Shown: in pieces, positions 22,888-24,978 of the stretch
How positions within the stretch are numbered: position 1 is the stretch's first letter
Layout: the number at the start of each line of letters is the position of its first letter
NCBI RefSeq assembly: GCF_014652635.1
Contig: NZ_BMZE01000001.1
Span: forward strand, 1,002,051-1,066,050
Source: Devosia pacifica
GTDB taxonomy: Bacteria; Pseudomonadota; Alphaproteobacteria; Rhizobiales; Devosiaceae
Direction of reading: 5' to 3'
Length of the DNA: 64,000 bases
Notes under the pieces: generated by a model
The model's input: the letters and a program-made list of their open reading frames with translations, nothing else
Told to the model about the DNA's origin: nothing
Databases searched by the model: none
Program-made: the position numbers and the translations under genes

Positions 22888-23607
22888 TTAGTTGGAGGCG
22901 AGGACGAGCTCCGGCTCCTGGCGATAATACTCGGGGAACACGGCCTCGAGGTTCTCGAGCTTCGGCATGTCGAAGCGCACGATGTATGGATAGTTCGGAT
23001 TCCTCACGAGGAAGTCCTGGTGGTACTCTTCTGCCGGATAGAAGGTGTCCGCTGACTCGATCGTCGTCACGATATCATCGGAATACACACCTGTCTGATC
23101 GAGCTGCTCGATATAGGCACGGGCAATCTGCTCCTGCTCCTCACTCATCGGGAAAATGGCTGAGCGATACTGTGTGCCGTAGTCAGGGCCCTGGTAATTT
23201 AGTTGCGTTGGATCGTGCACGACCGAGAACAAAATGTGCAGCAGCTCGCCGTAGCTGACAACGTCCGGATCATACGTAATCTCAACAGCCTCGGCGTGCT
23301 CGGTGCGACCGCTGCTGACTGTCTCATAGTCGGCGGTGTCAGCAGTGCCGCCGGCATAACCTGAAACCGCTGCCGTCACCCCATCAACATGCTGGAAAAC
23401 AGCCTGTACGCCCCAGAAACAACCTGCCGCAAACAACGCGGTCGCCTGATCCTGATCTGTCTCGGAGGTTGCATCCACCGATGGTGCCGGAATGATGAAC
23501 GGCTCCTCCTCGCCGAATGCCGGAAGTGTATAGGCCGAGGCCAACAGCAAGGCAGAAAGGCCGGCAACGCCGAGCGTCGCACCCGCTCCAATGGTCTTGG
23601 TGAACAT
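22888..23607 (-). CDS. msrA: Peptide-methionine (S)-S-oxide reductase, exported form
   Basis: This 239-residue MsrA repairs methionine S-sulfoxide. The catalytic motif ALFAAGCFWGVQAVFQ is at about residues 60-75, followed by SGYAGG, YETVSSGRTEHAEAVEITYDP and FWSVHDPT-like FSVVHDPTQLNYQGPDYGTQYRSAIF. An N-terminal hydrophobic segment (MFTKTIGAGATLGVAGLSALLLASAYTLPAFG) indicates export to the periplasm, unlike the cytosolic MsrA. There is a late EYHQDF motif. The start at 23607 follows AAGGAG by 7 bases; an earlier ATG at 23628 lies before that site. It is monocistronic. Confidence 0.93.
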   Translation of the reverse strand: MFTKTIGAGATLGVAGLSALLLASAYTLPAFGEEEPFIIPAPSVDATSETDQDQATALFAAGCFWGVQAVFQHVDGVTAAVSGYAGGTADTADYETVSSGRTEHAEAVEITYDPDVVSYGELLHILFSVVHDPTQLNYQGPDYGTQYRSAIFPMSEEQEQIARAYIEQLDQTGVYSDDIVTTIESADTFYPAEEYHQDFLVRNPNYPYIVRFDMPKLENLEAVFPEYYRQEPELVLASN

Positions 23608-23694
23608 GTCATGGCTCCTTTGGCTCATTCGCTACTATAGATACGAAGCCAGCAGCCAAAATGTATCACCTGCTTGAGACATCGTGATCGTGGG

Positions 23695-23723
23695 GTGACA
23701 AAGTTCTGGTTGGCAGCTATAGC
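23695..23723 (+). promoter_or_regulatory. Promoter of the aroG leader
   Basis: GTGACA at 23695-23700 and TATAGC at 23718-23723 are separated by exactly 17 bp, a good sigma-70 type match. Transcription should begin about 7 bases after the -10 box, at 23730-23731, which is the A of the leader-peptide ATG. This predicts a leaderless message. Confidence 0.6.
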
Positions 23724-23730
23724 TTCCGGC

Positions 23731-23805
23731 ATGATCAAGTCTTTCGCCACCTTTTCGTTTTGGTACTTTAGCTATCCGCACCGGCGGAGGCTTGCGCGCG
23801 CTTGA
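23731..23805 (+). CDS. Aromatic-amino-acid leader peptide of aroG
   Basis: A 24-codon open frame begins MIKSFATFSFWYFSY and ends PHRRRLARA before TGA. It has four Phe codons, one Trp and two Tyr within 11 codons (residues 5-15), exactly the amino acids made by the pathway whose first enzyme lies downstream. No Shine-Dalgarno sequence is visible, and the ATG coincides with the predicted transcription start, as in the leaderless trp leader known from Sinorhizobium. It should act as a sensor of charged aromatic tRNAs. It is too short for ordinary gene calling and would be missed by standard annotation. Confidence 0.85.
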   Translation: MIKSFATFSFWYFSYPHRRRLARA

Positions 23806-23865
23806 TCTGAACCAGAACAGACCAACCCCCGAAGCAGCCGCCGGACCTCGCCAGGCGGCTTTTTT
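23781..23865 (+). terminator. aroG transcription attenuator (antiterminator and terminator stems)
   Basis: The terminator stem is AGCCGCC (23836-23842) with GGCGGCT (23854-23860), followed by six T. The competing antiterminator is CCGGCGG (23781-23787), fully complementary to CCGCCGG (23838-23844), so the two structures exclude each other. A ribosome stalled on the Phe/Trp codons leaves 23781-23787 free and allows read-through. A ribosome that reaches the TGA at 23803 covers that segment and lets the terminator form. This logic is read directly from the sequence; activity is inferred. Confidence 0.82.
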
Positions 23866-23904
23866 GTTGGCCGCCGCCCGAGCTACCGGCACCGAGGAGC
23901 CAAC

Positions 23905-24978
23905 ATGTTGAAAGCCACTGACGATCTGCGCATCGCCGCAATACGGGAACTGATCTCGCCCATCGACGTCATGCGCGAATACCCGCGCACCGACACTGCC
24001 GCTCAGACGGTATTGAGCGCGCGGCACGCTTTTCACCAGATCCAGACAGGTGAGGATGATCGGCTGGCAGTGGTGGTAGGACCATGCTCGGTGCACGATC
24101 CTGATGCGGCCCTCGATTACGCACGCCGGCTGGCCGAGATAAAGGATCAGCTCTCCGACTCGCTCCAGATCATCATGCGTGTCTACTTTGAAAAGCCACG
24201 CACTACGGTTGGCTGGAAAGGGCTGATCAACGACCCGAACCTCGATGGAAGCTTCGAAATCGACACCGGATTGCGCACCGCCCGCTCGCTGCTGCTCGAG
24301 ATCGGCAATCTGGGCCTTCCGGCTGCGTGCGAATTTCTCGACATGACGACGCCGCAATACATCGCCGATCTTGTCAGTTGGGCCGCCATTGGTGCGCGGA
24401 CCACCGAGAGCCAGATTCACCGCGAGCTGGCATCCGGCCTCTCCTGCCCGGTCGGCTTCAAGAATGGCACCGACGGCAATGTACGCATTGCGCTGGATGC
24501 AGTGAAATCGGCAAGCAAGCCGCACCATTTCATGGCGGTCACAAAAACGGGGCAGTCAGCAATTGCCGAGACCACCGGCAACCAGGATTGTCACATCATT
24601 CTGCGCGGCGGAAAGACCCCCAACTACGATGCACAAAGCGTTGAAGCCGCTTGCATGGAAGCGGAAAAGCATGGTCTGCCGAAGGCTGTGATGATCGACG
24701 CCAGCCACGCGAACAGCGCCAAGAAGCCGGAAAATCAACCGTCCGTCTGCGCTGACGTTGCGCGACAGGTGGCGGGAGGCGATCAGCGCATCATCGGGCT
24801 GATGATCGAGTCCAATCTCGTAGCGGGCCGACAAGATCTCGAGCCGGGCAAGCCTCTCACCTATGGCCAGTCGATTACCGATGGCTGTATTGACTGGCAG
24901 ACTACCGTAGAGGTTCTCAACGAACTGGCTGCCGCTGTGAGCGAGCGACGCAAGGTTCGGAACCGTCGGGTTGCGTGA
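23905..24978 (+). CDS. aroG: 3-deoxy-7-phosphoheptulonate synthase, class I
   Basis: This 357-residue DAHP synthase catalyses the first step of aromatic amino-acid synthesis (phosphoenolpyruvate plus erythrose 4-phosphate). Class I motifs are VVVGPCSVHDPDAALDYARRL, MRVYFEKPRTTVGWKGLINDP, EFLDMTTPQYIADLVSWAAIGARTTESQIHRELASGLSCPVGFKNGTDG, ILRGGKTPNYD, MIDASHANSAKKPENQ and GLMIESNLVAGRQD. This is the AroF/AroG/AroH type with an N-terminal regulatory segment (ISPIDVMREYP). Feedback specificity cannot be read. It follows the attenuator by 40 bp, so its expression should respond to Phe/Trp/Tyr supply at the level of transcription. Confidence 0.96.
   Translation: MLKATDDLRIAAIRELISPIDVMREYPRTDTAAQTVLSARHAFHQIQTGEDDRLAVVVGPCSVHDPDAALDYARRLAEIKDQLSDSLQIIMRVYFEKPRTTVGWKGLINDPNLDGSFEIDTGLRTARSLLLEIGNLGLPAACEFLDMTTPQYIADLVSWAAIGARTTESQIHRELASGLSCPVGFKNGTDGNVRIALDAVKSASKPHHFMAVTKTGQSAIAETTGNQDCHIILRGGKTPNYDAQSVEAACMEAEKHGLPKAVMIDASHANSAKKPENQPSVCADVARQVAGGDQRIIGLMIESNLVAGRQDLEPGKPLTYGQSITDGCIDWQTTVEVLNELAAAVSERRKVRNRRVA

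Follow-up and report, generated by a model that had tools for sequence, protein, structure and literature searches.

An attenuator-like leader precedes aroG in Devosia pacifica

Does the short intergenic stretch in front of aroG in Devosia pacifica hold a switch through which ribosomes adjust transcription of the gene to the supply of aromatic amino acids? Our data indicate, with a probability of about 0.92, that positions 23695 to 23904 of the window (the whole stretch of 64,000 nucleotides of D. pacifica DNA analysed here) constitute a ribosome-mediated transcription attenuator that controls aroG and that is leaderless, as rhizobial trpL is. The predicted controlled gene, aroG (23905 to 24978, + strand), encodes a class I 3-deoxy-7-phosphoheptulonate (DAHP) synthase according to TIGR00034 (533.5 bits, cut-off 173.2) and PF00793 (318.9 bits), and it is the sole class I match in the genome. 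The same genome contains one more DAHP synthase, of class II, and we found no comparable leader frame in the 420 nt upstream of its gene. The Shine-Dalgarno sequence of aroG, as read from the DNA, is GAGGAG (23894 to 23899, + strand). A divergent gene (22888 to 23628, − strand), which we take to be msrA-like, adjoins the intergenic region that holds the aroG promoter.

Reading the sequence and comparing 54 representative leaders, we located a −35 element, GTGACA (23695 to 23700), and, after 17 nt, a −10 element, TATAGC (23718 to 23723), which lies 7 nt before an ATG at 23731; these and all leader features below are on the + strand. This is the promoter arrangement that the initial annotation had described, and the frame that it placed at the ATG is likewise present: a leader-peptide gene, MIKSFATFSFWYFSYPHRRRLARA plus stop (23731 to 23805), composed of 24 codons (23731 to 23802) and a TGA (23803 to 23805); transcription is predicted to start at the A of its ATG. 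Seven of the 24 codons are aromatic, and all seven (F5, F8, F10, W11, Y12, F13 and Y15) fall among residues 5 to 15, a putative control region (23743 to 23775) that is drawn from the sequence and from the stall model presented below.

Downstream of these codons, segment 1 (23771 to 23779) can pair with segment 2 (23781 to 23793). Segment 2 lies within the leader frame, consists of CCGGCGG (23781 to 23787) and GCUU, and provides the 5' side of the predicted antiterminator, while segment 3 (23832 to 23844), with AAGC and CCGCCGG (23838 to 23844), provides the 3' side. Part of segment 3, AGCCGCC (23836 to 23842), is also the 5' arm of a predicted intrinsic terminator (23836 to 23865) with the 3' arm GGCGGCT (23854 to 23860) and a T-run (23860 to 23865). 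Since one strand is common to both stems, antiterminator and terminator are mutually exclusive, and the complementarity of CCGGCGG and CCGCCGG that had been proposed to exclude the AGCCGCC/GGCGGCT stem is confirmed. The initial annotation also counted six T after the stem; six T are present at 23860 to 23865, but the first belongs to GGCGGCT, and five follow if the A-T pair is counted. On the 3' side of the terminator, GGCCGCC (23869 to 23875) could pair with GGCGGC of the terminator 3' arm (23854 to 23875 region), and a similar arrangement occurs upstream of aroG in several Devosia; this pairing is possibly the 5' hairpin of the read-through mRNA.

We considered whether a GC-rich intergenic stretch could show such a frame and such stems by chance. 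Seven aromatic residues in 11 are unique to the leader among the 905 ATG frames of 12 to 60 codons in the window (423 on the + and 482 on the − strand), and six in 11 occur in two other window frames, one of which is nested in the other. Among 5000 dinucleotide shuffles of positions 23600 to 23904, six yielded a + strand frame with at least six aromatic codons, and eight yielded a perfect 7-bp GC-rich stem followed by T5. Two results lean toward chance: the whole leader has only a slight folding advantage over its shuffles (z −1.56; a fold as good is found in 13 of 200), and a generic scan of the window called neither a promoter nor a terminator at the aroG leader. The scan is empty there because its rules, T as the sixth −10 base and a loop of at most 8, exclude the leader's forms. 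Given the shuffle counts, together with a leader kept at every class I aroG of the order draw described below, we rejected a chance origin, which we regard as vanishingly improbable.

Searches of family databases returned no match for the leader. At the gathering score, the covariance models of Rfam release 15 found no family in the window and nothing over the leader in L001, L027, L104 and L280, and NCBIfam and Pfam gave no family for the leader peptide. At L104, a cobalamin riboswitch match (RF00174, L104:1-86, − strand, 47.1 bits, cut at the locus end) lies near the aroG leader.

The leader is conserved upstream of class I aroG

A search of 41 relatives with AroG as the query gave 26 loci, the window's included, and an aromatic frame containing FSYP is present upstream of aroG at all 26. 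We built a covariance model (R1) from these 26 leaders, which matched 75 of the 397 genomes of the order draw at E ≤ 0.1. An AroG search of the same draw found class I aroG in 59 genomes, and in 59 of 59 the gene has an R1 leader on its own strand that ends 32 to 64 nt upstream; six of these genomes had also given rows to R1. Aromatic codons upstream of aroG, to whose conservation the initial annotation had tied its reading, are thus kept throughout the class I aroG genes sampled from Hyphomicrobiales. The R1 matches examined that have no aroG behind them include trpL-like leaders (WWWAR), which are weak matches: L106, L107 and L110 stand before a frame that is presumably trpE(G)-like, and L103 and L105 were judged trpL-like on the peptide alone. 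Further matches examined were a Tyr/Phe-rich leader before a gene that we take to be tyrosyl-tRNA synthetase-like (L100) and unrelated stretches. One locus, L099 (G752:C48), has a second copy of the aroG leader, MITVATRRFWHFTHRNSLAAGGSC, that is decayed; a promoter and a terminator are present, and no class I aroG follows.

The class draw (385 genomes) contained 13 loci beyond the window's with a real class I AroG (L027 to L039) and four more with a weak match only. The leader is present at 11 of the 12 loci having upstream sequence (L027 and L029 to L039), L028 being cut by a contig end; since L027 is also in the order draw, this amounts to 10 of 11 further loci. L033 (G317) carries class I aroG without a recognisable aromatic leader, and L034, from the same genus, has an aberrant one. 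A DNA pattern scan of named genomes matched at least 118 stretches; among the 80 matches listed, 73 stand before aroG and seven, from other phyla by their titles, do not. Devosia, Bradyrhizobium, Mesorhizobium, Kaistia, Methylosinus, Inquilinus, Novosphingobium, Phenylobacterium, Rubellimicrobium and others are represented by aroG leaders among the matches listed. A permissive finder, which accepts whichever frame within 420 nt is most densely aromatic, placed a leader at 225 of 228 class I aroG loci (170 distinct leaders), a generous figure from loci that include genome repeats; the counts from the order and class draws are cleaner. From these leaders we took 54 representatives that are distinct at less than 90% identity, with L191 excluded for a terminator that misfits the search pattern. 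Thirteen of the 54 were supplied by the pattern scan, which requires TTT at one Phe as well as set neighbouring codons and GGCGG.

We ran a second model (R2) on 349 genomes of the phylum. At E ≤ 0.01 it matched 175 genomes; many of these matches were weak and confined to the terminator part, and some outside the class were strong. We examined 32 R2 loci, 28 of which are outside the class, and found that 24 stand before class I aroG, 22 of these outside the class. The class I aroG leaders outside the class belong to families f237, f257, f234, f262 and f268 and include MNAARASFYFWYYFPMPLAEEGLRSP, MSAKFYFYFFWHLRPLADREG and MQARSAFYFYFWFSVPGGREAIA; the remaining loci examined lie before pheS-like genes (two) or pheA-like genes (two) or are unrelated (four). 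In family f257, the 1.2-Mb genome G1007 (L291) has kept an aroG leader frame, MAAKLYFYFFANLKLAEGDGC. In a tree of 76 AroG proteins with leaders, a single branch (98/85) separates the 54 alphaproteobacterial rows (52 representatives plus L277 and L281) from the 22 others. Judged by sequence, the leader is widely conserved, and related aroG leaders occur beyond Hyphomicrobiales, both elsewhere in Alphaproteobacteria and outside the class.

Leader transcripts are predicted to begin at the AUG

Counting from the leader ATG, GAC[AT] is found at −37 to −30 in 49 of the 54 representatives and TA at −15 to −10 in 51. Both promoter elements stand at this fixed distance in 48 of 54 leaders versus 5 of the 987 + strand ATGs of the window. 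A Shine-Dalgarno-like motif is present at 1 of 54 leader starts versus 46 of 52 aroG starts. These data suggest that the leader transcript begins at the AUG of the frame, in agreement with the leaderless start first proposed for this locus. Upstream in-frame GTG and TTG starts occur, but it is the ATG to which the promoter keeps a constant distance, and the GTG at −36 in the window is the −35 box itself; we rejected both as alternative starts. With a fixed promoter distance and no Shine-Dalgarno sequence, the 54 diverse leaders form a natural set for studies of leaderless initiation.

The terminator covaries and the antiterminator core is kept

We tested covariation in a 54-row alignment against 500 shuffles; since related sequences may beat shuffles without any structure, the shuffle counts that follow are not probabilities. 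For the terminator, 92.6% of cells are paired and 15 cells are changed on both sides, and neither value is reached by any of the 500 shuffles, while the count of doubly changed pairs (three) is reached by 129. At alignment pair 149-171 of the terminator, for example, 44 rows have G-C, nine have A-U and one has G-U (n = 54). For the antiterminator, the share of paired cells is reached by 1 of 500 shuffles and the number of changed cells by 82, which is weak covariation. Of the two stems that had been expected to covary, the terminator thus does so and the antiterminator does so slightly. The conserved core of the antiterminator is GGCGG:CCGCC, whose five positions are each paired in 50 to 54 of 54 rows, and its extensions are lineage-specific. 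A diverged leader, MSITSVYASRFYWYRCSQRMRVRA, in L104 (genus g303, perhaps Rhizobium) has AGCGG/CCGCU in place of GGCGG/CCGCC, a compensated exchange of A-U for G-C; L112 and L113 share its altered segment 3.

Folding gives a consistent picture of the two stems. When segment 1 is masked and segment 4 is still absent, the minimum-energy fold pairs segments 2 and 3 over 5 bp or more in all 54 leaders (7 bp in the window's antiterminator), and the terminator forms in 53 of 54 once segment 2 is left out. A possible hairpin of segments 1 and 2 is predicted by RNAalifold in the 26 close relatives. We do not count it as a proven part of the leader, since we found no covariation that supports it in the 54-row set.

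Stalling at aromatic codons frees the antiterminator in a model of the leader

Our stall model lets the ribosome cover 13 nt, beginning with the first base of the A-site codon, at a time when segment 4 is still unmade. The antiterminator then has a mean probability of 0.89, 0.30 and 0.02 at 5, 4 and 3 codons before segment 2, and the aromatic codons cluster 5 to 12 codons upstream of segment 2. With segment 4 unmade, a stall at one or more aromatic codons yields the antiterminator in 50 of 54 leaders (the four without switching are L012, L070, L089 and L140), and a stall at the stop codon yields it in none of the 54. When no ribosome is present and segment 4 is unmade, 26 of 54 leaders, that of the window among them, still form the antiterminator. 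In the window, A-site codons up to 14 permit the antiterminator and those from 15 onward do not.

In the full-equilibrium calculation, which includes segment 4, the antiterminator prevails for 37 of 220 middle aromatic codons and for 8 of 54 first and 5 of 54 last ones. A stall at the middle aromatic codon disrupts the terminator in 12 of 54 cases versus 43 of 1080 with the intervening RNA shuffled. In the window, the antiterminator is favoured only by A-site codons 12 (Tyr), 13 (Phe) and 14 (Ser). We therefore rejected a pure equilibrium switch, which works in few leaders; since the equilibrium effect is weak, the co-transcriptional order of synthesis would be needed, as in the classical model.

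Phe and Tyr codons are constant and Phe codons favour TTT

Each of the 54 representative peptides contains 4 to 8 aromatic codons. Phe and Tyr are present in all 54 (mean 2.65 and 2.54 codons) and Trp in 48, being missing from six (mean 0.89 codons). The constant signal is thus predicted to be Phe plus Tyr, with Trp as the usual third. Of the mixed Phe, Trp and Tyr signal that the initial annotation envisaged, the Phe and Tyr parts hold in every peptide, while Trp is frequent rather than constant and Y15 lies too far downstream in the stall model of the window.

We found that Phe is encoded by TTT in 105 of 143 leader codons versus 18 of 323 aroG codons, and Tyr by TAT in 94 of 137 versus 125 of 262. 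The TTT excess is specific, because the third-position GC of non-aromatic codons is alike in leaders (0.82; 828 of 1013) and in aroG (0.84; 14479 of 17336). At one Phe position, TTT occurs in 49 of 49 rows, 13 of which were preselected for TTT; the other Phe codons, which are free of this selection, are TTT in 56 of 94. The TTT excess suggests selection for slow decoding.

Proposed mechanism and other readings

The start site in Devosia pacifica, the stall, the end of transcription and the effect of each amino acid are inferred, and we picture them as follows. RNA polymerase would start at the A of the AUG at 23731, and a ribosome would load on the leaderless 5' end. Under a shortage of charged Phe-, Tyr- or Trp-tRNA, the ribosome would stall at the aromatic codons, leaving segment 2 (CCGGCGG) free to pair with segment 3 (CCGCCGG) before segment 4 is synthesised; this pairing would block the terminator, and aroG would be transcribed. 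When aromatic amino acids are plentiful, the ribosome would reach the stop codon and cover segment 2, so that segment 3 could pair with segment 4 and transcription would end at the T-run.

The leader might sense chiefly Phe and Tyr, with its single Trp codon a passenger or a weak contributor. The constancy of Phe and Tyr beside a Trp that some peptides lack would fit this narrower range, as would the window's Trp11, where a stall scores 0.21 at full equilibrium. However, the same stall gives an antiterminator score of 1.0 with segment 4 unmade, a footprint error of one codon would shift the equilibrium result, and Trp is kept in most leaders, mostly at the same aligned place. We consider the restriction to Phe and Tyr rather unlikely. 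A wider reading of the attenuator, which we hold tentatively and at somewhat less than even odds, is that it represents an old gate for the shortage of any aromatic amino acid: Phe, Tyr and usually Trp charging would be read at once by one leaderless frame, tuned by rare TTT codons and inherited or moved with class I aroG across Alphaproteobacteria and other Pseudomonadota. The class I DAHP synthase family is otherwise known for allosteric feedback, and such a gate would add RNA-level control to it.

The leader could also act through its products rather than in cis alone. Its terminated RNA or its peptide might have a role in trans, like rnTrpL and peTrpL of Sinorhizobium meliloti, for which PMC7298713 describes trans roles; the leaderless anatomy is the same, and FSYP recurs in all 26 peptides of the relatives search. 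The peptide itself argues against this. Compared with other aligned Devosia, the window lacks one base after FSYP (CCGCACCGGCGG versus CCGCTCCCGGCGG), which turns LPAEA into HRRRL while the RNA GGCGGAGGC is unchanged. Devosia geojensis (L173) lacks the same base, and its AroG pairs with the window's in the tree (99/89). A frameshifted tail beside a kept GGCGGAGGC suggests that selection preserves the RNA rather than the peptide. Moreover, the peptide differs widely between families, and the conserved letters of FSYP double as segment 1 and as control codons; we thus find a function in trans improbable. A protein or ligand might instead bind the conserved leader RNA as in a riboswitch, with the short frame secondary, and the letters of UUUAGCUAUCCG and GGCGGAGGC are indeed invariant in the 26 close relatives. 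However, no Rfam family matches the leader, and the aromatic codons persist across families while the surrounding letters change, which makes a riboswitch-like element very improbable beside ribosome-mediated attenuation.

Relation to known attenuators

The leaders of ilvGMEDA and thrABC are each known to respond to more than one end product of a branched pathway; they differ from the aroG leader in pathway and sequence. The E. coli leaders of pheM-pheST and pheA resemble it as Phe-rich ribosome-mediated attenuators of aromatic metabolism, but they sense Phe only, have different target genes and sequence, and use a Shine-Dalgarno start. R2 found a 14-residue peptide, which we take to be that of E. 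coli pheM, before a gene named here as pheS-like (L296, L297), as well as Phe-rich leaders before genes that are presumably pheA-like (L298, L302). This recovery of known phe attenuators is a useful positive control.

The initial annotation had stated that rhizobial trp leaders are leaderless and work by the same logic, and PMC7298713 and PMC10117765 do describe rhizobial trpL as leaderless and attenuated. The trpL-trpE(G) system of S. meliloti and other rhizobia, as described there, shares with the aroG leader a frame at the 5' end of the transcript, consecutive control codons and a choice between antiterminator and terminator. Whereas trpL encodes 14 amino acids with Trp as the only control residue and precedes trpE(G), the aroG leader encodes 23 to 32 amino acids with Phe, Tyr and usually Trp, precedes class I aroG and has segment 2 inside its frame. 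It thus works like trpL but falls outside the trpL definition of Trp-only codons before trpE(G).

Two predictions in PMC8632094 are also related. uORFC-13-1, predicted in 2021 before aroF of Acholeplasma, is likewise an upstream Phe-coding frame with a terminator before a DAHP synthase gene. It differs in being confined to Acholeplasma and environmental sequences, in having a ribosome-binding site and in a U run that codes for at least one Phe, and the part of the article at hand describes no mixed Phe/Tyr/Trp frame for it; the same article cites a hypothesis of E. coli aroF attenuation. uORFC-8-2, before cysS in Rhodobacterales, is an alphaproteobacterial ribosome-mediated attenuator that was also predicted by comparison, but its control codons are Cys and its target is cysS (PMC8632094).

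We found no account of an aroG attenuator in Alphaproteobacteria in the literature searched, although an earlier description may exist; the word aroG is absent from the main texts of PMC2965389, PMC4842269 and PMC5082802. The aroG leader is therefore an attenuator of a known kind for which, in the case of aroG, we found no description in that literature. It offers a predicted means of controlling entry into aromatic synthesis for Devosia, Bradyrhizobium, Mesorhizobium, Kaistia and others, for which the literature searched gave none. Since one ribosome would read several pathway products, the integration of several amino acids by a single leader could be tested by codon swaps, and both the annotation of short frames and the engineering of aromatic production in these bacteria stand to benefit.

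We also observed a second leaderless attenuator-like frame (L100 and L307 to L336), mostly with the core VYFYY or VYYY, before a gene that is presumably tyrosyl-tRNA synthetase-like. We examined the 30 loci that scored best among 61 genomes and found the aromatic frame in all of them. Many of these loci have TTGACA at the −35 distance, and in many f213 genomes the frame precedes one of two copies of the gene.
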